Shown in pieces: positions 5,308-20,643 of a stretch of 20,643 bases of DNA. The stretch covers positions 1-20,643 of the IMG/VR virus record IMGVR_UViG_3300030012_002974; one strand, given 5' to 3'. Each line of letters opens with the position of its first letter. Position 1 is the stretch's first letter. The translations under genes and the position numbers were made by a program. A model generated the notes under the pieces. It saw only the letters and a program-made list of their open reading frames with translations. It had not been told where the DNA came from and made no database searches. Source of the DNA: a virus.

Positions 5308-6642
5308 TTACACCTTCTTTAGTTTCGGTAATTTTATTTCTGTTGGTTTATTGTCACCAACCTTTTTTAGTTTTGGTAACTTCAAATCAACTTGTTTTGG
5401 TTGTTCTTCAAACTTAGGTAAGTATCTGTCTAATATTTTACTAAATTCTTTGGTCATTTTATCCATAGAAAAGTTAACCCTATTATACATAGATTGCCTC
5501 TTAGCCATCATAACATACTTTCTGTTGTTCTTAAACACATCTTTCATAATCTGTGAGGCGTATTGATAGTTTATAGTAAACCATTTAGCACCTTCAACCA
5601 ATATATCTTTCGGTAATGCTGATTTGTGTACATCCGTCATTACACCGGGCAAAAGAACTGAGTTGTTCTTATTTAGGAAGTCTAAGTGACCACTCCAATT
5701 AGGAGCGATAACTATTTTCTCTGACAGACTAGCTTCTAATAAAGGTCGGCCGAAACCTTCACCATGTGTAAAAGTGATATGAGCTTTTACCTTTGGATGG
5801 TTGTACAATTGGTTCATCTCCTCATCACTTAGGTCACCATGTAAGAAATAAACAGGAGGTAACTTACCCTTTACATTAGCTTTTATCTCTTCTATCTTAC
5901 CCCTAATCTCATTTCTGTCCATAATAGAGAAAGTAGCACCGCTTGTTTTCATAACTAATGCTGGAGGATTAGGTTTGTTCTTAAATGTTTCTAAGAAAGT
6001 CTGCAGCAAACTTCCTGTGTCTTTTCTATCTTGTCCTAATTCACCTTGTAACCAATGACCTGTATATAGGAATACAAATCTTTCCTCTATACTATCCATC
6101 TCAGCTTTTAATTCATCTGATATATCTTTTGTCTTACGATATATTTTAGTATCAGCACCCTCAAAAAGAACTTCTATTGGTGATGTACATTTTAGTTCGC
6201 CTGTTTTTTGTTTTGTCTGTTCATTTATCTCTTCATAAGAAACTGATTCAAATGTATTTTTAACAAACTTAGATGGAACTATATTCATATTCATACGATT
6301 CATACCTTGTATCCACTCAGCTTTAGGTGCTGTATTTTCTATACCAGCTGTTATACCTATGTTGTATATAGCTATTGGTGTAAACTCATTTGGTACACTA
6401 ATTTGTATATGAACTTCTGGTTGTTTCGGTAGTTCATTCGTATTGAGTATTCTACTAAGTATTTCAACATCCTCTGGTTTACTCTCATCTAAAGCATTCA
6501 TCGGACAATTACCCCAACGAAGTGAATTAATCTTTATATCAAACTTATCCATAGCTATCAGACTTCTGACTAAATCTCTACTATGTGAACCATATCCACT
6601 TCTCGTAGCAACTGGTCCTGTAATTAACATTAATGGTTTCAT
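5308..6642 (-). CDS. GT4-like (GT-B) glycosyltransferase with a repeated lysine-rich tail
   Basis: The 444-residue protein has the two-domain GT-B layout. The N-terminus MLITGPVATRSGYGSHSRDLVRSL resembles the acceptor-side glycine loop of GT4 enzymes. FLYTGHWL (about 190-197) opens the second domain. THGEGFGRPLLEAS (about 293-306) is the family's EX7E-type donor-binding motif. NWSGHLDFL follows, as in related proteins that sense the top of the sugar nucleotide. The last 30 residues hold two copies of KLPKLKKV separated by a short acidic/polar linker and look like a flexible basic tail. AGGAG lies five bases before the ATG. It follows the other GT4 gene by eight bases, and the pair probably act in sequence on one glycan. 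No membrane segment is seen. Confidence 0.85.
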   Translation of the reverse strand: MKPLMLITGPVATRSGYGSHSRDLVRSLIAMDKFDIKINSLRWGNCPMNALDESKPEDVEILSRILNTNELPKQPEVHIQISVPNEFTPIAIYNIGITAGIENTAPKAEWIQGMNRMNMNIVPSKFVKNTFESVSYEEINEQTKQKTGELKCTSPIEVLFEGADTKIYRKTKDISDELKAEMDSIEERFVFLYTGHWLQGELGQDRKDTGSLLQTFLETFKNKPNPPALVMKTSGATFSIMDRNEIRGKIEEIKANVKGKLPPVYFLHGDLSDEEMNQLYNHPKVKAHITFTHGEGFGRPLLEASLSEKIVIAPNWSGHLDFLNKNNSVLLPGVMTDVHKSALPKDILVEGAKWFTINYQYASQIMKDVFKNNRKYVMMAKRQSMYNRVNFSMDKMTKEFSKILDRYLPKFEEQPKQVDLKLPKLKKVGDNKPTEIKLPKLKKV

Positions 6643-10564: not shown

Positions 10565-10595
10565 TAAAGCTACGACTTTTTTTTGATAAAGTCAA
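10565..10595 (-). promoter_or_regulatory. Promoter copy B (TTGACT-17-TAGCTTTA)
   Basis: On the minus strand TTGACT (10595-10590) is followed by a 17-base spacer and TAGCTTTA (10572-10565). Both boxes and the CG preceding the second are identical in promoter copy A at 16869-16899. An A-rich run upstream of TTGACT would act as an UP-type element. TAGCTTTA resembles the Bacteroidota TAnnTTTG -7 box with an upstream TTG. The TAG is also the stop codon of Mom-family gene 2, and the -35 box lies in its coding end. The expected start lies just before the Nmad1-like gene, giving a leader of about 15-20 bases. Confidence 0.6.
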
Positions 10596-11211
10596 GCTTT
10601 TTTATTTTTCTTTTGATTCTTTTGTTTAGATAGTATACATAAATATGCTTCGGTTTTGTCTTCTTCCAAAATATATTTTCGTCACCAGCTTTATATCTTC
10701 GATTCAATTCTCTACCATACGGCCTCTTTATCTGATTAAGTGACCGACTATGTGTTTCCTTTCCATCCACAATCAGTATCCTACCACCAGCTGTTTCTCC
10801 CCAATACTCAAAGTTAGTAGCCCTATATATCACTCCTTTATGTCCGTGATGCTCATCGGCAAATGATACTACAACTTCCATATCGGTGTTCTGTTTCAAC
10901 CACTTGAAAGTCTGACCTATAAAGTAACTCTCTGTATTCTTAGGTGTATCATCGATACAAACCAACCTTCTAAGTTCCAAACACTTAGTTGGATTGATTG
11001 GATTGTACTTTTTAGCGGTATCGGGCATCGATGGATAAGCGTACATAGCTGCTCCAATCATCTTAGGTAAACCAAAGTTACCCTCACCATACAACCCAAA
11101 ATGGTATATCGATTGTACACCATTTGTATTATGTGAGTAGTGATGTTTTTCTACGAAAGGTACTAATGATTTTCTTGGTATTGATTCTACTGTGAAGTTA
11201 GTAACCGACAC
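10570..11211 (-). CDS. Mom-family DNA-modification protein 2
   Basis: The 213-residue protein matches the phage Mu Mom family, GNAT-like enzymes that convert adenine in DNA to a carbamoylmethylated form. Visible landmarks are HHYSHN (23-28), LELRRLVCID (78-87), SFADEHHGHKGVIYRATNF (116-134) and a basic C-terminal tail (KRIKRKIKKL). Length is close to Mu Mom (about 230-240). The start is a GTG that overlaps the clamp loader small subunit stop (TAGTG); no strong ribosome site is visible, suggesting translational coupling. It shares the ELxRL and SxAD...GxIYxATN pattern with Mom-family protein 1 at 12803-13564 but is clearly diverged, so the two may have different substrates or targets. Family membership is well supported; the actual base change is not known. 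Confidence 0.8.
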   Translation of the reverse strand: MSVTNFTVESIPRKSLVPFVEKHHYSHNTNGVQSIYHFGLYGEGNFGLPKMIGAAMYAYPSMPDTAKKYNPINPTKCLELRRLVCIDDTPKNTESYFIGQTFKWLKQNTDMEVVVSFADEHHGHKGVIYRATNFEYWGETAGGRILIVDGKETHSRSLNQIKRPYGRELNRRYKAGDENIFWKKTKPKHIYVYYLNKRIKRKIKKLDFIKKKS

Positions 11212-11660: not shown

Positions 11661-11895
11661 TGCTTGGCATAAACTTATCTGGAACTTTACCACAATTACC
11701 ACAGCTATACACCTGAATAGGAACCATAGCTTCTTGTCCAGTTGGTGATACGATTGGTGATATTCTTCTTAGGAAGAAACATTGAATGAACGTAGCATTT
11801 CCACACTCATCACAAACCACAGTCTCTGTATCGTTGATATCTATCTCTTGTTGTGGTGGTTGTCCACCTAATGGTTTCATTGGTTTCGTACTCAT
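11650..11895 (-). CDS. Small zinc-ribbon protein in the replisome operon
   Basis: The 81-residue protein has two CxxC pairs, CDEC (28-31) and CGNC (65-68), separated by a strand-rich segment including RRISPIVSPTGQEAMVPI, which is a typical zinc ribbon. The N-terminus is Pro/Gly/Gln-rich and probably disordered. I recall comparable small ribbon proteins with a SPTG motif near the clamp loader genes of marine T4-like phages; no role is known to me. AGGAG seven bases upstream fixes the start, and its ATG overlaps the gp44-like stop (ATGA). Its position between the two clamp loader subunits suggests a partner of the replisome or of late transcription. Confidence 0.75.
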   Translation of the reverse strand: MSTKPMKPLGGQPPQQEIDINDTETVVCDECGNATFIQCFFLRRISPIVSPTGQEAMVPIQVYSCGNCGKVPDKFMPSNDS

Positions 11896-12815
11896 TTTAT
11901 TACTCCTAATAATTCTATTATCATAGCCATAGCATTTATCTCTTTATCAACTACCTGACTATCCGATAACTGATACTTAGCTATAATCAAAATACATTCT
12001 GCTATATGTCCTGTACCATACGAATCAACCTCATCATACATCAACTTATATAGTTCAGCGAAGTCCGTTACTTGACTATCAGCCAATAACTTTCTCACAG
12101 CTTTGAACGCATCCTTCTTATTTTCCTTCTTAATTATTTCCATCAGCTTCATCTTATAGTCACTCTCAACCAAAGATTGTTTATCTACAACCAACATACC
12201 ATCGACACATTGTCTTTGACAAGAGTTTATTACCCTACGAATATCAGGATAACCAGCATTAACCAATCCAGCTATATCATCTACCTTAGAAGCTATACCC
12301 TCTTCCTTCAGTATGTTAGTCATATGAACAGCGACTTCCTTCTTCGATGGTGGTATCACCTGAAATGATTGACAACGACTTTGTATCGGGTCTATAATTC
12401 TTTCTACAAAGTTACAAGTTAGGATAAACCTACAATGTTTAGAGAAAGTCTCCATAAGGTTACGAAGAGCTGCTTGTGCATTTGGTGTGATGTAATCACA
12501 CTCATCTAAGATTATTATCTTATAGTCCTTAAAACCCATAGTCGAAGCGAACCCACGAACCTTATTACGAACTGTGTCCACACTATTCTCATCTGAGGCA
12601 TTGATATACATATAGTCACATTCTATATTGTTTACCAATAGTTTTGCGAGAGTGGTTTTACCTGTACCGGCCTTTCCATATAATAAAAGGTGTGGTAAGT
12701 CTCCACTCTCAAGATAAACAGACACCTTACTCTTCAGATGTTCATTACCTATATAGGTGTCTAAGGTTGTAGGCCGATACTTCTCAACCCATAAGCTATG
12801 TTCTAATCTTTCCAT
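11892..12815 (-). CDS. 44: Sliding clamp loader ATPase, large subunit (gp44-like)
   Basis: This is a 307-residue AAA+ ATPase that opens the sliding clamp and loads it on primer-template DNA. It begins with LWVEKYRPTTLDTYIG, the shared N-terminus of clamp loaders. Walker A is GKAGTGKTT (47-55) and Walker B is IIILDECD (100-107, a DExx box). Sensor 1 is ILTCN (131-135) and the SRC arginine finger is SRC at 146-148. A sensor 2-like GYPDIRRVIN follows. Length is close to T4 gp44 (about 320). The ATG has only a weak ribosome site and lies inside the last codons of Mom-family gene 1 (13-base overlap), suggesting coupling. Its partners are the clamp at 13564-14280 and the probable small subunit at 11211-11660. 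Confidence 0.95.
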   Translation of the reverse strand: MERLEHSLWVEKYRPTTLDTYIGNEHLKSKVSVYLESGDLPHLLLYGKAGTGKTTLAKLLVNNIECDYMYINASDENSVDTVRNKVRGFASTMGFKDYKIIILDECDYITPNAQAALRNLMETFSKHCRFILTCNFVERIIDPIQSRCQSFQVIPPSKKEVAVHMTNILKEEGIASKVDDIAGLVNAGYPDIRRVINSCQRQCVDGMLVVDKQSLVESDYKMKLMEIIKKENKKDAFKAVRKLLADSQVTDFAELYKLMYDEVDSYGTGHIAECILIIAKYQLSDSQVVDKEINAMAMIIELLGVIK

Positions 12816-13564
12816 TTGTTATTTTCCACTTCTATTTTTGTTATCTCAACATCATGTTGATAGTTTTTTGGATAGTCCATTATAGGATGTTTCATCATCT
12901 TTTTGAAATGTCTATTCTCTTTCTTATTACCAAGAAAGTAAATGTATCTATGTTTACTAGCTTCCTTCTTCAACCAAAAATCATGCCCTATAGCTTTGAT
13001 TAGATTTTTGGGAGCGGCTGAACCAAACTTAGAATATACATTTCTACTATGCATCCAATCACCATCCTCTTTTAATCTTAACGAATATGTAGGAGCCATT
13101 TGAAAGTCTCCACAACCTTGATAAATCCAATTGGTGGCCTGATAGATAGCACCATCATGCGCTTGTTCAGGATCAGCATAAGATATAAGAACCTTTATAT
13201 CTGGTGCATATTGTTTCATCCATTTAAATGTGGATGATATCACATGCGATTCTATATTCTTTCCATAACCATCGTGAATAAATAATCTTTTTAGTTCTAA
13301 GATATTCTTATTCTGTATTATCTCATCTTTAAATATAGAACCGATAACCCTTCTACCTACAGGAAAACCATAACAAGCCACCCCAATGAAATCCTCTGTT
13401 TCACCATCAAAGAATTTATGGTTATCGGACTTGTAGAAAACTCCAAGAGTATATCTACAAGCCGACATCTTACCACTGTAATGGTTACGGATAATCATAT
13501 CTCTAGCCAAGTTCTTATGAACCGGCTTTACTGAGACTTGTGATTTATCTACATAGGTTTCCAT
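12803..13564 (-). CDS. Mom-family DNA-modification protein 1
   Basis: The 253-residue protein has the Mom-family GNAT plan: RNHYSGKM (26-33), a strand segment FIGVACYGFPVGRRV (59-73), LELKRLFIHDGYGKN (89-103), and SYADPEQAHDGAIYQATNW (128-146), followed by a C-terminal extension with KHRYIYFLGNK. In phage Mu, Mom adds a carbamoylmethyl group to adenine in DNA, protecting it from many restriction enzymes. The ATG overlaps the clamp stop by one base (TAATG), and its 3' end overlaps the clamp loader ATPase start by 13 bases, so it is locked into the replisome operon. Compared with Mom-family protein 2 the core motif is kept but sequence and C-terminus differ. The chemical product cannot be deduced; another acyl transfer to DNA or tRNA is possible. 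Confidence 0.85.
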   Translation of the reverse strand: METYVDKSQVSVKPVHKNLARDMIIRNHYSGKMSACRYTLGVFYKSDNHKFFDGETEDFIGVACYGFPVGRRVIGSIFKDEIIQNKNILELKRLFIHDGYGKNIESHVISSTFKWMKQYAPDIKVLISYADPEQAHDGAIYQATNWIYQGCGDFQMAPTYSLRLKEDGDWMHSRNVYSKFGSAAPKNLIKAIGHDFWLKKEASKHRYIYFLGNKKENRHFKKMMKHPIMDYPKNYQHDVEITKIEVENNKWKD

Positions 13565-14280
13565 TACACATCTGTATCAGCAACTAAGTAATAAGTAGCG
13601 TCATACTCATCAATCTTAAAATTGATACGAGCCAAACCTTGCGAACTTACTTCTAACGTAGCACTTTCACATTCTTTGTTAGCTACCAATACATCTCTGA
13701 ACAGATTAGCATTGAAAGAAACATTCTCAATCTTATCATAAGATTCTGTTTCCACAGGAAGAGTAACACGATTAGTGTTAATCTCAGCATAACCGATGAC
13801 AATCTTTACACCTTCATCATCTGTGATGACTGTAAAGTTATCTGTATCTGTTAGAGCACCTTTACCCGCGACAAACTTTGACATAAATGATTTGTCAACT
13901 TTAATCTTTACCTCAAAATCAGGTATAGACTTTAGGTTAGGTGGTGAACTGATAACAGACAAATCTGATAACATATAGTTCACATCAGACTTTGTATCTG
14001 ATATCTTTAGTGATACTGCTTTTTCACCAGCTTTGGTTAGGTTCATAGATATATTATCAGACAAAACCGATAGAAGTTTTACCAACTGCTCTGTGTTGTA
14101 TACACCCAAATCAGCTTCGTCAAAACTCCAACCGGACATACTTAATTCACCAAGTAAGTTTTTGTCGCCTGTGATAAATCTAGTAGAAAGAGAATCTCCT
14201 CTACTATTAATAACAACAGATGAACAATTCCCACCAAGATAATATTTTTCTATGAAACGGTTTAACGAATGTTTATTCAT
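13564..14280 (-). CDS. 45: DNA polymerase sliding clamp (gp45-like)
   Basis: The 238-residue protein has the length and strand-rich pattern of T4 gp45 (228 residues), a trimeric ring that tethers gp43 to DNA and in T4 also activates late transcription. It shows two repeated halves: strands around SSVVINSRGDSLSTRFI and LGVYNTEQLVKLLSVL in the first, and FTVITDDEGVKIVIGYAEI, VSFNANLFRDVLVANKE and LARINFKIDEYDATYYLV in the second. Clamps lack catalytic motifs, so the call also uses position between the polymerase and clamp loader genes. AAGGAG six to seven bases upstream gives a strong ribosome site. Its stop overlaps the start of Mom-family gene 1. Confidence 0.9.
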   Translation of the reverse strand: MNKHSLNRFIEKYYLGGNCSSVVINSRGDSLSTRFITGDKNLLGELSMSGWSFDEADLGVYNTEQLVKLLSVLSDNISMNLTKAGEKAVSLKISDTKSDVNYMLSDLSVISSPPNLKSIPDFEVKIKVDKSFMSKFVAGKGALTDTDNFTVITDDEGVKIVIGYAEINTNRVTLPVETESYDKIENVSFNANLFRDVLVANKECESATLEVSSQGLARINFKIDEYDATYYLVADTDV

Positions 14281-14342: not shown

Positions 14343-16838
14343 TCAAAAAAATCTTTCCATAGATGTCTTTTTATTTACAGGCTCATTCCATTTCAATGTG
14401 TCGTAAAACATCATTATCTTTTTCTCCAACATCTGAGCATACATCTTTTTATAATCTATGTTAGTTTTAATAAACTCTATAATCTGTGGTGGGTCTTCAT
14501 AACCTTTGTAACCACAAGACTCTAATCCTAACTCATTCTGTTTTAGATAAACCCATCTAATCTTTTCTGAGTTACTTATCTTTTCGTATTTATTTCCAAC
14601 CCCAAAGTGTCCTAACAAATCATTGTAGGTTATAGCAGCTTTTACATGCGCCGGTGAACCCTTAGCGAACTGAGTAAACTTACCATTCTTACCAGCACTA
14701 TACTTCTTTAGGTTCTTTACGCCTGTCGGCATCGCTATCCTATCAAAGTCTACCAACTTCATAGACTCCTTAAAGTTTATTATTCTTTCGTCAATCTTAT
14801 CTTTGGGTACAGTAGCTAGGATATCTTCCAACACATCTTTCAGTAGTTCACCCATAGCCTTTGGAAAGTTACTACGAACTAAGTCTAAACCTTTTACATG
14901 TAGTTTGTTTACTTTTACCCCATTGTCATTGATAATCTTCATACCATATCGTTTCTTTACAATGAACAAACCTGATTTAGCTATTAACTCCTGCTTTATC
15001 TCAAACCTATGTTTGTCTAAGTTTAAGAACTTACCAGCAAAGTAATCGTAAGACTTATTTAGAAACCCCTGCATCTCATCAGCTACATCCAATATTCTCT
15101 TACTCATCATAGTTTCACTTTCTATATCCATAGTAGGAAACCTCTTTTGGATTATTGGAAGAGCTGAGTAGAATACTGAATCTGTATCGATATAAATACA
15201 ATAATCCTTTGTATCTCCTAACTCTTTGTTGTAGAAGTGATTACCAATCTTTCTAGTAAACTTAATCAGTTCCTGACCTGTAAGTGTGGTAGCTTCGGCG
15301 TTATCTAAGTCATAGAAACGAAATACAGGTAAACCCAATACACCATAGAGTGAGTTTAAAACAACCTTTTGAATCAACTGACGACTTTTAAAGTATGTAT
15401 ACTTTTCGTTATCACCAGCGTCACCAAACTTCTTCATCAACTTTCTATACTCTACACGAGTATCGAACCACTTCTCCAATAGAGCTGGAATCAACCCTTT
15501 CTTATCGCTACGATACATCACACCATTAGAAGATACAGAAACCTTATTGTTGTCTAAGAAATCCTTCAGTTCTGTTTCTGTAAGTTTACCCATCTCTTTA
15601 TCATCATTTTTAAGAGTGTATGTTTTCTTATCTCCTCTGATATATTCTTCAGCATCCCAACCGACAATCTTACCCATCTTTGTTTCAGGTGATATGTTCA
15701 AAGACATAATAACAGATGGATACATAGAAGTAATATCCAAGTCAAACACCCAATCATGCTTACCTCTTTGTGGTGGTTGTACATAAGCACCAGCAAACTT
15801 ATCCCCATCCAGCTTCTCAACTCTTGGTGGTTTGTTTGGAGCTACTACACCTATGTTCTTCAGGTAAACTAATATAGCACCTTCCAAATAACGAGATGAG
15901 AAATAAACATCCTCATAAGGAACGTGACCTACGTGACATACACCTCGAGCCATATCGATGAAGTCCAACTTATCATGCAATCTTTTTACAAGCCTAACGT
16001 CATGTATGTTGTACTCAACAAACTTATCTATATTGTTTTCGTATAAGTCATTGAGTGTGCCCGTATACTCTACCTTCTTCTCACTTAGTTCATGCTCAGC
16101 TACAGCATCTAATCTGTAAGAGGATAGCTGAGTGTATGTAAATAGTTTGTACAGAGCTAGGTAATCTAAACAACTAACACCAGCGAACATATACCTCTTA
16201 CGATGTTTGTTCCATTTGACTTCCCTTATCGGTGATATCAGATTAGCTATATCTGAACCAATTATCTTAGAGGCTCTGTTAAATAAGTAAGGCATATCGA
16301 AAGTATCGGAGTTCCAACCTGTGATGATGGTTGGTTTCCAATCTAAATATTTTAAATAGAATCTTTGTAGTAAATCAAACTCACTATCAAAAGATTCGAT
16401 AATCACATTATCCTTTGATTGTAAAGTAAGTTTCTTTTTATCATCCAATACGAAACAATAATACTCATCCTCACCTGAGTCATGAACTGCGATAGCAGTT
16501 ATCTTATCATTAGCGTCTTCTGGATATGGAAACCCATCAGTAACCTCAACCTCAATATCGATTGTGAGTATACGATGGCCTGTAGATAGTTCTTCTGATT
16601 CAGGATATTGGTCAACCAATGTACGAGTTTCTGGTGGTACATCTGATTCAAATAAGTTTGGTGTGTCTGGTTCAAATCGATAAACCTTTCTAAGTCTATC
16701 CCCATACAGAGATATATGATGTCCGTTCCTATCCTTTACATAGGCATATCTTTTATATGGTAATGTGAAATAACCTTTCTCATCATCCCAAATATGAACT
16801 GTTTGTTTTTTATTATCGAAATAACAATTTTGATACAT
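14343..16838 (-). CDS. 43: Family B DNA polymerase (gp43-like)
   Basis: The 831-residue replicative polymerase has both exonuclease and polymerase sites intact. Exo I is DIE at 94-96, Exo II is N176 to D181 (NSDTFD) and Exo III is Y276-D280 (YNIHD). Polymerase motif A is D368-S375 (DITSMYPS), motif B is K491-G499 (KVVLNSLYG) and motif C is Y549-S554 (YIDTDS). T4 gp43 has 898 residues, so this is a slightly compact version. It copies the phage genome with 3'-5' proofreading and binds the gp45-like clamp through its C-terminus (ERFF here resembles a clamp-binding tail). The ribosome site is weak (GGGGA about 14 bases upstream). Promoter copy A lies just upstream, so the gene heads the replisome operon. 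Confidence 0.97.
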   Translation of the reverse strand: MYQNCYFDNKKQTVHIWDDEKGYFTLPYKRYAYVKDRNGHHISLYGDRLRKVYRFEPDTPNLFESDVPPETRTLVDQYPESEELSTGHRILTIDIEVEVTDGFPYPEDANDKITAIAVHDSGEDEYYCFVLDDKKKLTLQSKDNVIIESFDSEFDLLQRFYLKYLDWKPTIITGWNSDTFDMPYLFNRASKIIGSDIANLISPIREVKWNKHRKRYMFAGVSCLDYLALYKLFTYTQLSSYRLDAVAEHELSEKKVEYTGTLNDLYENNIDKFVEYNIHDVRLVKRLHDKLDFIDMARGVCHVGHVPYEDVYFSSRYLEGAILVYLKNIGVVAPNKPPRVEKLDGDKFAGAYVQPPQRGKHDWVFDLDITSMYPSVIMSLNISPETKMGKIVGWDAEEYIRGDKKTYTLKNDDKEMGKLTETELKDFLDNNKVSVSSNGVMYRSDKKGLIPALLEKWFDTRVEYRKLMKKFGDAGDNEKYTYFKSRQLIQKVVLNSLYGVLGLPVFRFYDLDNAEATTLTGQELIKFTRKIGNHFYNKELGDTKDYCIYIDTDSVFYSALPIIQKRFPTMDIESETMMSKRILDVADEMQGFLNKSYDYFAGKFLNLDKHRFEIKQELIAKSGLFIVKKRYGMKIINDNGVKVNKLHVKGLDLVRSNFPKAMGELLKDVLEDILATVPKDKIDERIINFKESMKLVDFDRIAMPTGVKNLKKYSAGKNGKFTQFAKGSPAHVKAAITYNDLLGHFGVGNKYEKISNSEKIRWVYLKQNELGLESCGYKGYEDPPQIIEFIKTNIDYKKMYAQMLEKKIMMFYDTLKWNEPVNKKTSMERFF

Positions 16839-16908: not shown

Positions 16909-17409
16909 TTAATACATTAAATAAATTTCTTGTGAGTCTATAACTGTTCCTTCTATAGACCACCATAACCACATCCAGCTACCATACCCATCGTGTCCAA
17001 TCATAGTGGTAACAGGTGTTAGAACATTGTAGAAGTTTCCAAGACTATCGGTAACAGAACTTCTCTGTGTAACCCATCTAAGTTCATTTATATCAATGGT
17101 TGTGGTATCAGTAGAGCCATCCATATCATACCAAACCGCTTCATCACATCTACCACACAGTAGTTTATAGTAACCGCTGGAATCATTCTCATCCCAATAC
17201 ATATCACTAAACCAATTGACAACCATACCCTCAACATCAAAGTTATCAGATTCTAATGTTCCGTACATATAGGTTGGAGTTTCCCAAATGTAATAGTTTA
17301 AAGGTATGTATGGTATCCTTAACATCGTAACTTCGATGTTAGCAATCTTATCTCCCTTGTTTTCCTCACAAGAGAATAATAGTAGTAATGATAGTATAAT
17401 TTTTTTCAT
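16909..17409 (-). CDS. Small outer-membrane lipoprotein next to the TonB-dependent receptor
   Basis: From the ATG at 17409 the product has 166 residues. MKKIILSLLLLFSC is a lipoprotein signal peptide with lipobox LFSC, so Cys14 should be acylated, leaving a mature protein of about 153 residues. The residues after Cys are acidic (CEENKGDK) with no Asp at +2, which fits outer-membrane sorting and may resemble the surface-export signal of Bacteroidota lipoproteins. The mature part is rich in Trp, Tyr and Asp, with a second cysteine pair CGRC (85-88). I recognise no family; it is far too short for SusD. The longer reading upstream would place residues before the signal peptide and is rejected. 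It lies 48 bases after the receptor gene, behind a hairpin, so the two are probably one unit. Candidate roles are ligand capture for the receptor or receptor blocking. Confidence 0.75.
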   Translation of the reverse strand: MKKIILSLLLLFSCEENKGDKIANIEVTMLRIPYIPLNYYIWETPTYMYGTLESDNFDVEGMVVNWFSDMYWDENDSSGYYKLLCGRCDEAVWYDMDGSTDTTTIDINELRWVTQRSSVTDSLGNFYNVLTPVTTMIGHDGYGSWMWLWWSIEGTVIDSQEIYLMY

Positions 17410-17426
17410 AATAACCCTATGATAAA

Positions 17427-17446
17427 GGGGGAGCCGAAACTCCCCC
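17427..17446 (-). terminator. UUCG-loop hairpin between receptor and lipoprotein genes
   Basis: On the minus strand GGGGGAGU pairs with GCUCCCCC (seven Watson-Crick pairs and a closing U-G) around a UUCG loop, giving a very stable hairpin 11 bases after the receptor stop. Only a short T-run (TTT) follows, so it may be a leaky terminator or a 3'-end stabiliser of the receptor message that tunes lipoprotein output. Stable UUCG hairpins between genes are known in T4. Confidence 0.6.
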
Positions 17447-17457
17447 AAGTTTATCTA

Positions 17458-20193
17458 TTAGAAATTGACAGATAGTCCTAAGTTGAAACTTCTTGGTGTA
17501 CCCAAAAAGACTTCAGCATTATGAGCTGCGTGAACTTTGTCACCATACCCATTGTATTTACTATTGTCAACAGCGTCCTGAACGTAAACTTCGTCAAGAA
17601 CGTTAAATATATGACCACTAAGTGTCATATCTAAACCAGCAATCTCTGGTAGTTTGTAAGATAGATGCATATCTAACTTACCATAAGATGGAGTCTTCCA
17701 TACTTGTGCTCTGTCAGCATCACCTTCAACCTCACGAGAATCAGGACTCCAATCTGAATAGTGGTTATCATACCATCTATAAAGACCTTGCACCCTTAAC
17801 CCATCGATAGGTTTAATGGTTAGTCCACCAACATAAGCAGTTTGTGGCATGTCTCCGACTTTAAGGTTATTAAGAGCATACTGATACTCTGTAGAGGTCT
17901 GACCGATAATCTGACCTTCTTCATTGTATTCCATCTCTGTATAATCACCTTTAGCATCACCATCAAAGTACCAATCACCAACACTAACGGAGACATCTAA
18001 GTCAACCATTTCGTGTAGAGCGACTTTAGATTCAATCTCTACACCTGAGTGTGATTGATTTACACCTGTAAGATAGATGATATCAGTATCACCTGATGAA
18101 CCTTGACCTGTTGAAACAGATTTAGTAAGGTTTCTATCTTGCCATTGTGTATTGTAGTAACTACCTTTGATAGCAACTAACTCACTTCCATATTCTCCAC
18201 CGATTTCAAAAGATGTGAATTTCTCATTGTCTGGATTCTGTGATACATTTCCATCATAGTCAATCACATTATCTAAGATTGGTGGTTTTTGAACATATCC
18301 GATGTTAGCAAATGCTGATAGTCTGTCATCAAGATTGTATCTACCACCACCTTTAACTTGAAAGGTTGTAATAGCATCAGCCTCAACAACTTCTTTTTCT
18401 ACAGAGAAGTGGTCTTGATAGGTATAAGCAATAGTTGAAATACCACCCATACCATAAAGATTAAATTTCTCTGTGTCATACTGACCTTGTAAGAAAGTAC
18501 CGAACCAATCTACTGTGGTTTCATTGTGATAGGCAATGATATCACCTAACCTAACAACTTTACCATCAGGAGCGTTATCGTCAGCAAAGTCTACATAGTA
18601 GTCTCCACCGAGTAGGTCACGAACTTCTCTAGCATGTTCAATACCAGCAGTTCTCCAATCAATACCAATCTGAACTTCAAGCTCATCTGATACATCATAG
18701 TTTAATTTTGAAATCAAACCATAGGTATCTTGTCTGTTGATTGAGTTTCTTAGGATGCCTGTAGAACGATTTTCGGTATCAGAGAAAGCAGAATCTACAT
18801 TAGCAGAGTTCTCAGCTATTTCTCCATCCCAATCCCACATCCAAGGTGAAGATGCATACCATCTTTCTCCCTCTACTGCAGGTGTTCTACTAACACTACC
18901 ATAGGTTCCTGTACCACCACCAGAACCACCACTCCAATAAGCAACAGATGATAATCTAATGTCATCGTTGATATCATAGAAATGATTTAGGTTTACAAGT
19001 GGTTTATGAAAGAAGTTTTCTCTTTCATTTAACATATTAGGATTATACCTATCGGTAGTCTTCGCACCATACATATACCAATATTGTTTTCCTTTGTAGT
19101 CGGAACTAACAGGAGCCCAATTTTGGTTGTAGAACCTACCAGCTTCAGTTTCAAACTTCTCTCCCGCAACGTAAGCTGAGTCGTTGTATCCATCGATACT
19201 ACCAGCCAACTCCTGAGAGTAAGTAGCTATGTTCTGTTTGTATAGGTTCTGTCCATGTCTCTGTGGAGCACCAATAGCATATAGTTCAACCCTTTGGTCA
19301 TCACTAATAGCATATGATGTTCCTAAATAATAAGCCCAAGCGTCTGTCCATGTTCCATCGATGAGACCATCACCAGTTTTACGAACAATTGTTCCACTTA
19401 TTGCCAACTTATCATTGATTAGACCTGAGTTATAGTTGATAGTAGATTTTAGAAATCCACCCTCTCCTACTTCTTGTTTGAACTTACCACCTTTCTCCTG
19501 CGCTGCAGGGTCTGTGATTATGTTCATAGTTCCACCAATTGATGGAGTTGCCAAGTTAACTGCTGATAGTCCTCTCTGCATTTGGATAGAGGATGTAGCA
19601 TCACCTACACCATCCCAATTAGACCAATAGACCCAACCGTTTTCCATATCGTTTTGAGGAACACCATTAATCATAACAGCAACGTTTCTTTGGTTGAAAC
19701 CTCGTACATTGATACGAGCATCACCAGCACCACCACCTTGTTGTGTAGCGTAAACACTTGGTGTAGTATTAAGAATCATTGGAATGTCTTGTGAACCAAG
19801 TCTGATTTCCATCTCTTCTTTACTAACGTTAGTGTAAGCCACAGGTGTTGTTTCATCAGCTCTAGAAGCAAGAACCTCTAATGCTGACATAGCGATAGCA
19901 TCAATCTCTAATGAGAAATCAACTACCACATCACTTGAATCCACTATAACTACTTGAGTTACAGGTGAATACCCAATGAATGAAGCGATAACATTGTGTT
20001 CACCAGCAGGAACCTCAATAGAAAAAGCACCATCAACTCCTGATACAGTTCCTATCTCACTACCCTCAATGACAATGTTAGCTCCAACCAAAGGCTTATC
20101 CTCACCACTAATAGTCCCACTAATTGATTGTCCGAAAAGGAAAATCGGTGTGAGGAATACTAGCAATGATGATATTAGATTACGTTTATTCAT
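17458..20193 (-). CDS. TonB-dependent outer-membrane receptor
   Basis: From the ATG at 20193 (AAGGAG seven bases upstream) the protein has 911 residues. Residues 1-~22 are a signal peptide (MNKRNLISSLLVFLTPIFLF, then GQ). Residues ~24-95 are a carboxypeptidase-regulatory-like beta domain (PLVGANIVIEG, DGAFSIEVPAGEH, ASFIGYSP), typical of FCB-group receptors. A TonB-box-like stretch (ALEVLAS, about 104-110) follows. The plug domain spans ~115-230 (INVRGFNQRNVAVMINGVPQ at 161-180, IGGTMNIIT at 219-227). A 22-strand-type barrel runs to the end, closing with NLGLSVNF whose terminal Phe is the outer-membrane assembly signal. Such receptors import bulky ligands using TonB energy. No frameshift or truncation is seen. 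It lies between a ribonucleotide reductase and the phage polymerase. The ligand is unknown; at 911 residues it is longer than a classic BtuB. Confidence 0.95.
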   Translation of the reverse strand: MNKRNLISSLLVFLTPIFLFGQSISGTISGEDKPLVGANIVIEGSEIGTVSGVDGAFSIEVPAGEHNVIASFIGYSPVTQVVIVDSSDVVVDFSLEIDAIAMSALEVLASRADETTPVAYTNVSKEEMEIRLGSQDIPMILNTTPSVYATQQGGGAGDARINVRGFNQRNVAVMINGVPQNDMENGWVYWSNWDGVGDATSSIQMQRGLSAVNLATPSIGGTMNIITDPAAQEKGGKFKQEVGEGGFLKSTINYNSGLINDKLAISGTIVRKTGDGLIDGTWTDAWAYYLGTSYAISDDQRVELYAIGAPQRHGQNLYKQNIATYSQELAGSIDGYNDSAYVAGEKFETEAGRFYNQNWAPVSSDYKGKQYWYMYGAKTTDRYNPNMLNERENFFHKPLVNLNHFYDINDDIRLSSVAYWSGGSGGGTGTYGSVSRTPAVEGERWYASSPWMWDWDGEIAENSANVDSAFSDTENRSTGILRNSINRQDTYGLISKLNYDVSDELEVQIGIDWRTAGIEHAREVRDLLGGDYYVDFADDNAPDGKVVRLGDIIAYHNETTVDWFGTFLQGQYDTEKFNLYGMGGISTIAYTYQDHFSVEKEVVEADAITTFQVKGGGRYNLDDRLSAFANIGYVQKPPILDNVIDYDGNVSQNPDNEKFTSFEIGGEYGSELVAIKGSYYNTQWQDRNLTKSVSTGQGSSGDTDIIYLTGVNQSHSGVEIESKVALHEMVDLDVSVSVGDWYFDGDAKGDYTEMEYNEEGQIIGQTSTEYQYALNNLKVGDMPQTAYVGGLTIKPIDGLRVQGLYRWYDNHYSDWSPDSREVEGDADRAQVWKTPSYGKLDMHLSYKLPEIAGLDMTLSGHIFNVLDEVYVQDAVDNSKYNGYGDKVHAAHNAEVFLGTPRSFNLGLSVNF

Positions 20194-20216
20194 AAAAACG
20201 TCTCCTTGTGTTTTCA

Positions 20217-20253
20217 TTAACTGAGTTAAGACACATTTTTCCACAGGTGTGTC
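20217..20253. promoter_or_regulatory. Two adjacent inverted repeats in the receptor leader
   Basis: The 78-base gap between the reductase stop and the receptor start holds a perfect 6-1-6 inverted repeat (TTAACT, G, AGTTAA; 20217-20229). It is directly followed by a 6-base-arm hairpin (GACACA at 20230-20235 with TGTGTC at 20248-20253, 12-base loop). They could be an operator and an RNA hairpin controlling the receptor. No TTGACT promoter copy and no T-run for termination are seen here. Confidence 0.4.
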
Positions 20254-20271
20254 GTCTGCCTGTCCGCAAGT

Positions 20272-20643
20272 TTAATTTGCATAGTCTTGGTCATCATTAT
20301 CGCCAGTTGTTGGAATAATCTCACACGAGTCATTGTTACAGAACTTATCTACTTCTGCTTCTTCATGTTTGATTACACCAAATGAAAGTTTACCAAGCTT
20401 CTTTACTTGTTTATTGTACTCTTTCTCATCTATAGCTTCATACGGCATTTGTGGATATGCTCCGTAATCATGTCTTGGTAAAAGGGAAATACCTTTTAGA
20501 TGATATTGATAATAATTTAGAGCGGGTGCGATTTGTTCACCCTCTGTTTCTGGATTGAATGTAACCGTACAACTTACTTGGTTGTCTGCCCAATGTCTTT
20601 GCATAAAAGCAGCTAAACTGAACTGTTCCCATATCGACAGGTC
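20272..20643 (-). CDS. nrdJ: Class II (adenosylcobalamin-dependent) ribonucleotide reductase, C-terminal fragment
   Basis: Reading continues without a stop to the window's right edge (13 more codons beyond the ATG at 20604, starting DLSIWEQFSLAAF), so this is the last 123 residues of a larger protein, not a short gene. The sequence MQRHWADNQVSCTVTF, then LKGISLLPRHDYGAYPQMPYEAI, matches the end of the barrel of monomeric class II reductases of the Lactobacillus RTPR type. The tail carries CNNDSC, a C-x4-C pair like the C-terminal redox-shuttle cysteines of that enzyme. The enzyme reduces ribonucleoside triphosphates to deoxy forms using adenosylcobalamin. It leads into the receptor gene 78 bases downstream. 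The N-terminal catalytic residues lie outside the window, so completeness cannot be judged. Confidence 0.85.
   Translation of the reverse strand, partial: DLSIWEQFSLAAFMQRHWADNQVSCTVTFNPETEGEQIAPALNYYQYHLKGISLLPRHDYGAYPQMPYEAIDEKEYNKQVKKLGKLSFGVIKHEEAEVDKFCNNDSCEIIPTTGDNDDQDYAN

Follow-up and report, generated by a model that had tools for sequence, protein, structure and literature searches.

An intact TonB-dependent receptor gene in a lineage of T4-like ocean phages, with a candidate regulatory pseudoknot in its leader

The stretch of DNA analyzed here (the window) is a single viral record, IMG/VR IMGVR_UViG_3300030012_002974, of 20,643 bases, with its genes on the minus strand. Between a class II ribonucleotide reductase and a T4-like DNA polymerase it encodes a predicted TonB-dependent receptor. 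With moderate confidence, we interpret this gene as a phage-owned, working TonB-dependent transporter that was gained once from a Marinimicrobia host and has been kept as a cassette to feed the infection. The conserved cassette consists of a leader pseudoknot, the receptor and a terminator.

That phages can bring metabolic genes with them, and can block host receptors or alter them, is established. A lineage-wide, selected and intact transporter derived from the host would be a different control of the infected cell, one that alters what the cell takes up, and it suggests that these phages run or control nutrient import across the envelope of the infected cell. A transporter of this kind would also connect T4-like phages with an ocean phylum that is abundant but uncultured, and would offer a direct test of viral steering of nutrient import.

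The predicted receptor is intact

The receptor lies in an open frame at 17458-20244 on the minus strand, for which the mechanically assigned start is a GTG at 20244. The true start is likely the ATG at 20193, giving 911 amino acids, because the Shine-Dalgarno sequence AGGAGA stands 7 nt ahead of it. The protein has a signal peptide, and its CarbopepD_reg_2, CarboxypepD_reg and Plug domains all exceed their Pfam cut-offs (Plug, PF07715: 52.2 bits versus 23.9). The C-terminus (...GLSVNF) ends in phenylalanine. The AlphaFold2 model is a barrel (pLDDT 73) in which the plug is modelled poorly, and its best solved matches are TonB-dependent transporters (highest Z 28.9, over 574 residues). These matches are transporters of small ligands, FyuA (Z 28.9), BtuB (27.6, rmsd 3.0), Fiu (27.2) and FhuA (about 26), and do not single out one substrate. 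Ahead of the plug lies the sequence SALEVLASRA, common to the phage and host consensus, which we called a TonB box by its position. Assignment to the SusC/RagA type failed: the receptor scored 51 bits against TIGR04056 (cut-off 368), and the lipoprotein encoded next to it had no Pfam or NCBIfam match. A sequence-only reading of the window had described the receptor as full and intact, and since signal peptide, regulatory domain, plug, barrel and terminal phenylalanine were all found, we consider this confirmed at the level of sequence and model.

The receptor belongs to the phage lineage

A scan of IMG/VR yielded 305 stretches encoding relatives of the receptor, the best 80 of them at 72-98% identity. 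Where flanks are present, nearly every locus has the reductase directly upstream of the receptor and the polymerase downstream of it. The sequence-only reading had placed reductase, receptor and polymerase in this order on one strand; PHROG and Pfam matches bear this out, and far from being missing in all related phages, the order recurs in many contigs. A second scan was seeded by the polymerase and hence unbiased towards the receptor, although a few of its contigs are near-duplicates. Among the loci it recovered with both reductase and polymerase, the receptor lay between them in about 20 and was missing in five (L160, L167, L203, L204 and L213). The receptor is therefore not essential. Three contigs of 57-165 kb (G006, G007 and G025) contain a T4-type gp23 capsid gene together with the receptor plug domain.

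It could be argued that the window is a chimaeric assembly, or that host DNA has entered a viral bin. The window does rest on one 20.6-kb metagenomic record, and two relatives (L082 and L127) sit in mislabelled metagenome-assembled genomes. On the other hand, identical junctions occur in many contigs, some of them 95-165 kb long, that come from different metagenomes, and the phage clade stands apart from all host genes. Independent contigs repeat both the synteny and the intactness of the gene far more often than chance would allow, which makes an artefact of this kind untenable. The comparisons confirm the receptor, at the sequence level, as a phage gene found lineage-wide in widespread T4-like ocean phages. 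As a separate observation, the two contigs binned in metagenome-assembled genomes, one labelled Flavobacteriales (L082) and the other Euryarchaeota (L127), are actually phage contigs of this lineage.

Outside this lineage, matches were distant. Among cultured phages, the nearest polymerase (47% identical) belongs to Microcystis phage Mel-JY01, where no receptor occupies that position. Matches to the receptor among GenBank phages were at most 30% identical over most of their length and came from unannotated metagenomic records; the best viral structure match, from an uncultured marine phage, is annotated SusC and is 12% identical. Our literature search, which many subscription papers lay beyond, found no account of this receptor in Marinimicrobia phages. 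The earlier statement that no characterised phage carries its own receptor stands for the cultured phages in the collection searched. It does not stand for marine megaphages, since a putative TonB-dependent receptor (SusC) is annotated in Mar_Mega_1 and LR745206, for which the authors suggested carbohydrate uptake (PMC9723777). Those genomes share with the window a receptor gene of this kind annotated in a marine phage, but the megaphages are unrelated to this lineage (the LR745206 match has 26% identity over 22% of the query), and the part of the report available gives no replisome context, leader RNA or lineage-wide conservation (PMC9723777). The general kind of receptor is thus already known from marine megaphages; the dedicated pseudoknot and the mini-TonB described below were not found in the sources searched.

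A single origin from Marinimicrobia

Cellular relatives of the receptor are nearly all from Marinimicrobia (SAR406), mostly 53-68% identical, and 107 of 244 Marinimicrobia genomes have a strong match. In the tree, the phage receptors form one clade (support 98/94.8) nested among Marinimicrobia receptors, with the host gene at L083 as its sister (support 100/100). The L083 locus is cellular: the gene is flanked upstream by an aminotransferase gene and downstream by a second paralogue of the receptor. The single phage clade within the Marinimicrobia receptors indicates that the gene was taken once, long ago, from this phylum and was then inherited and exchanged between phages; Marinimicrobia are the presumed host. 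The Marinimicrobia orthologues (L083-L125) resemble the phage receptor in domain order and are nearly equal to it in the plug and TonB-box region. Unlike the phage gene, they are chromosomal, have their own terminator, no pseudoknot leader and no phage neighbours, and are less conserved in their loops. Some Marinimicrobia chromosomes carry tandem receptor paralogues (L083, 986-3736 and 3876-4265; G205:C105; G206:C31).

Exchange between phages shows at fourfold sites. Between L001, a near-copy of the window, and L192, these sites differ by 10% in the receptor versus 33% and 49% in the flanking genes. Three more groups of pairs likewise have receptors less divergent than their flanks, and the opposite pattern was not seen among the pairs compared. 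Some receptor alleles have thus moved alone between phages.

Conservation favors a transporter over a decoy

Between close pairs, receptor dN/dS is 0.06-0.19, which places the phage genes under purifying selection. Mean pairwise identity among phage receptors is 0.92 in the plug, 0.83 in the strands and 0.81 in the extracellular loops, which were assigned from the model's secondary structure and have approximate borders; the loops of host receptors are only 0.58 identical. Phage and host plugs are 0.875 identical, the TonB-box consensus is the same in both, and fixed differences between phage and host receptors number just five. A decoy could dispense with the TonB box, and a surface engaged in an arms race would be expected to have variable loops; neither expectation matches this conservation. 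A working transporter is favored because the phage receptors have kept a plug and a TonB-box region close to those of the host, and because their loops vary no more than their strands. Of the roles put forward in the sequence-only reading, feeding of the infected cell is consequently the one we retain as the best, and a plain decoy or exclusion device is not supported.

A different form of exclusion has to be weighed, in which the phage receptor replaces or out-competes that of the host so that rival phages or toxins cannot bind while transport continues. TonB-dependent receptors such as FhuA and BtuB are classic phage receptors. Structures of T5 pb5 bound to FhuA are among the fold matches of the window receptor, as is 8a60, which relates to the modification of FhuA by T5 through its exclusion lipoprotein Llp, and the alleles that travel between distant phages (L001 and L192, above) would suit such a role. 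An arms race should diversify the loops, yet phage loops are conserved as described and host loops are the more variable ones, and the five fixed differences are few. Receptor replacement therefore seems to us unlikely.

Several observations weigh against a feeding transporter. Five relatives have the reductase adjoining the polymerase and do without the receptor. No metabolic partner gene points to a substrate, and the host orthologues are solitary and outside nutrient operons; reading a substrate from host operon context was rejected on that ground. ExbB was found in none of eight large phage contigs of the lineage. The loop conservation would fit, as well, an exclusion that relies on retaining host function.

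If the receptor is a transporter that feeds the infection, we infer the following for its time of expression, insertion, transport and the action of the pseudoknot. The receptor would probably be made together with the replication genes during infection, be inserted into the outer membrane of the infected cell and draw on the host TonB-ExbB-ExbD machinery; TonB and ExbB are present in three of three host genomes tested. A scarce small ligand could then still be imported after the phage shuts off host synthesis. The pseudoknot would most likely set translation of the receptor or stability of its mRNA.

A leader pseudoknot specific to the receptor

Between reductase and receptor, the window contains a 34-nt H-type pseudoknot (ACAGG-CAGAC-GACACA-CCUGU-GGAAAAA-UGUGUC, 20263-20230), an element that the sequence-only reading had passed over. 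Stem 1, ACAGG/CCUGU, pairs 20263-20259 with 20247-20243; stem 2, GACACA/UGUGUC, pairs 20253-20248 with 20235-20230; and a loop is A-rich. The element was present, in 65 distinct forms, at every one of the 203 phage receptor loci whose upstream sequence is long enough. In a set of 50 distinct sequences, standard pairs fill 97.5% of the pair cells, and six of the 11 pairs vary on both sides. None of 500 shuffles matched the 97.5% or the covariation score, and when the stem partners were slid against each other, pairing fell to about half at most.

The link to the receptor is exclusive. All 184 matches to the pseudoknot pattern, including those of a sequence-only scan of IMG/VR, precede a receptor or run off the contig end; two were left unassigned by the script, and translation shows a receptor after both. 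The element is missing from loci without the receptor, was absent from 244 Marinimicrobia genomes at the strictness of the pattern and was not visible in the host receptor leaders inspected. Its end lies 29 nt (interquartile 28-30) ahead of the receptor ATG, while its distance to the reductase stop codon ranges from 6 to more than 1000 nt. In L027, where a glutamine synthetase gene is inserted between reductase and receptor, the pseudoknot remains with the receptor. The fixed link to the receptor, and the absence where there is no receptor and in host genomes, indicate a phage regulatory element dedicated to the receptor. Readthrough of the reductase stop codon by way of the pseudoknot was considered and rejected, given the variable distance to that stop codon and the fixed distance to the receptor ATG.

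A known riboswitch was also rejected: Rfam, whose models leave pseudoknot pairs unscored, gave no plausible match to the leader up to E 10 and none at the gathering threshold in six phage sources. The pseudoknot may sense a ligand, protect the mRNA or bind a phage protein, as does the translational-operator pseudoknot in the 5' leader of T4 gene 32. The two have in common the H-type fold, the position in a 5' leader and a T4-like phage gene downstream. They differ in sequence and in loop plan (loop 1 of 5 nt and an A-rich loop 3 in the receptor leader), and the receptor pseudoknot precedes the receptor gene and no other gene found. It has the look of a regulatory RNA that is so far unrecorded and serves a single target.

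A secreted mini-TonB in relatives of the phage

Six of the eight large contigs encode a mini-TonB, a protein of about 105 amino acids in which a signal-like N-terminus is followed by the C-terminal domain of TonB (PF03544, 31.8-49.5 bits versus a cut-off of 24.6). At this size it has neither an N-terminal membrane anchor nor a proline-rich linker for coupling to ExbB-ExbD. An IMG/VR scan found 41 contigs with a mini-TonB. Seven contigs hold both the mini-TonB and the receptor, and in L377, L385 and L400 the mini-TonB adjoins gp32 and precedes the receptor by about 8 kb. Mini-TonB and receptor are not an obligate pair, because G019 has the former and no match to the latter.

A free periplasmic TonB domain inhibits TonB-dependent transport in E. 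coli, and the mini-TonB may, by inference, block or redirect TonB, which would add a second, testable level of control. It could be speculated that the phage runs a TonB system of its own, in which the secreted domain works with the phage receptor, occupying or shielding TonB boxes and so disabling host receptors or redirecting TonB. The distribution of the protein and its position near the receptor in three contigs are consistent with this idea. Neither the window, itself a short stretch, nor G006 or G007 showed it; TonB C-terminal domains also occur in proteins with other functions; and in some contigs the gene lies near pilin-like genes instead. For these reasons we find a phage-run TonB system decidedly unlikely. 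A private import system, with the phage's own receptor under a phage-invented pseudoknot and a secreted TonB domain that disables or re-routes host TonB, so that the phage imports what it needs and shuts out TonB-dependent rivals, is an extension that we also consider quite unlikely.

Relatives L365-L370 and L371-L411 encode secreted TonB C-terminal-domain proteins, and some of these contigs have pilin-like and MscS-like genes close by. L367 carries a type IV pilin-like protein with an N_methyl motif (5562-5996) on a T4-like phage contig.

Vitamin B12 is an unlikely substrate

Relatives in which the reductase is full-length score above the cut-off for the adenosylcobalamin-dependent family RTPR (TIGR02505; 371.7 bits in L006 versus a cut-off of 340) and match the solved enzyme of the L. 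leichmannii type. A cobalamin receptor could therefore be supplying the adjacent B12-dependent reductase, and BtuB ranks in the top group of fold matches. Siderophore and haem receptors give scores like that of BtuB, however, and the receptor has no match to the BtuB family model. A cobalamin riboswitch was found in none of seven host-orthologue loci scanned. Such riboswitches occur in 186 of 243 Marinimicrobia genomes, usually one each (for example L335 and L342-L346), and where the neighborhoods were read they precede other genes. Several of these are receptor-like genes with a regulatory domain, whose identity to the phage receptor does not exceed 28%. Phages without the receptor, moreover, retain the same reductase. 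Vitamin B12 is thus an unlikely substrate, and supply of the reductase by a cobalamin receptor very improbable. CobS was tried as a B12-support gene and rejected, having only weak ATPase matches below cut-off.

Terminator, cargo slot and neighboring genes

In nearly all phage loci, a hairpin comparable to the terminator in the window comes after the stop codon of the receptor. The terminator call rests on this recurrence, because the scan found four terminator-like sites versus 3.0 expected and a single site is not above chance. In L068, L071 and L074, a tRNA-like sequence takes the place of the hairpin directly after the stop codon.

The slot between terminator and polymerase varies: it can hold a lipoprotein, a dUTPase, a glutamine synthetase or other genes, and in places is no more than about 115 nt long. 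The sequence-only reading had treated receptor and lipoprotein as a pair; an obligate pair was rejected, since the slot of other phages holds other genes or nothing, and this variable position beyond the receptor's terminator makes the lipoprotein one of many exchangeable, optional cargo genes. Its relatives are weak (26-35% identity, in five of 245 Marinimicrobia genomes) and its model (pLDDT 36) has no usable fold. It shares with T5 Llp, the FhuA-blocking lipoprotein, that a phage-made lipoprotein occurs in the setting of a TonB-dependent receptor, but it is larger, facultative and past the receptor terminator, with a model of that low confidence. A GlnII-type glutamine synthetase, below the model cut-off, precedes the receptor in L027 (8984-9970) and follows it in L028, L034, L036, L043 and L077; it is a possible nitrogen-metabolism cargo gene.

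Table 1. Annotated features of the window
Feature	Position	Strand	Basis
Class II (B12-dependent) ribonucleotide reductase, C-terminal 123 aa, truncated by window end	20272..20643	-	PHROG 367
H-type pseudoknot, receptor 5' leader (candidate regulatory element)	20230..20263	-	Occurrence, covariation
Shine-Dalgarno AGGAGA, receptor gene	20201..20206	-	Sequence
TonB-dependent receptor, 911 aa (likely start)	17458..20193	-	Pfam, structure model and fold searches, phylogeny
Intrinsic terminator, stem GGGGGAG/CUCCCCC and T-rich tail, immediately 3' of receptor	17427..17446	-	Terminator scan
Small lipoprotein, 166 aa, facultative cargo	16909..17409	-	ATG 17409, signal peptide, lipobox-like LFSC
T4-like family B DNA polymerase, downstream flank	14343..16838	-	PF00136; PHROG 262 over its length
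Sliding clamp	13564..14280	-	PHROG 223
Clamp loader ATPase	11892..12815	-	PHROG 168

Downward from 20643, the genes are the reductase C-terminus, receptor, lipoprotein, family B polymerase, sliding clamp, a Mom-like protein and the clamp loader, past which the window holds additional replication genes and glycosyltransferase genes. Two distinct Mom-family (DNA modification) proteins are encoded in the same replisome cluster, at 12803-13564 (152 bits) and 10570-11211 (150 bits), where the cut-off is 27.

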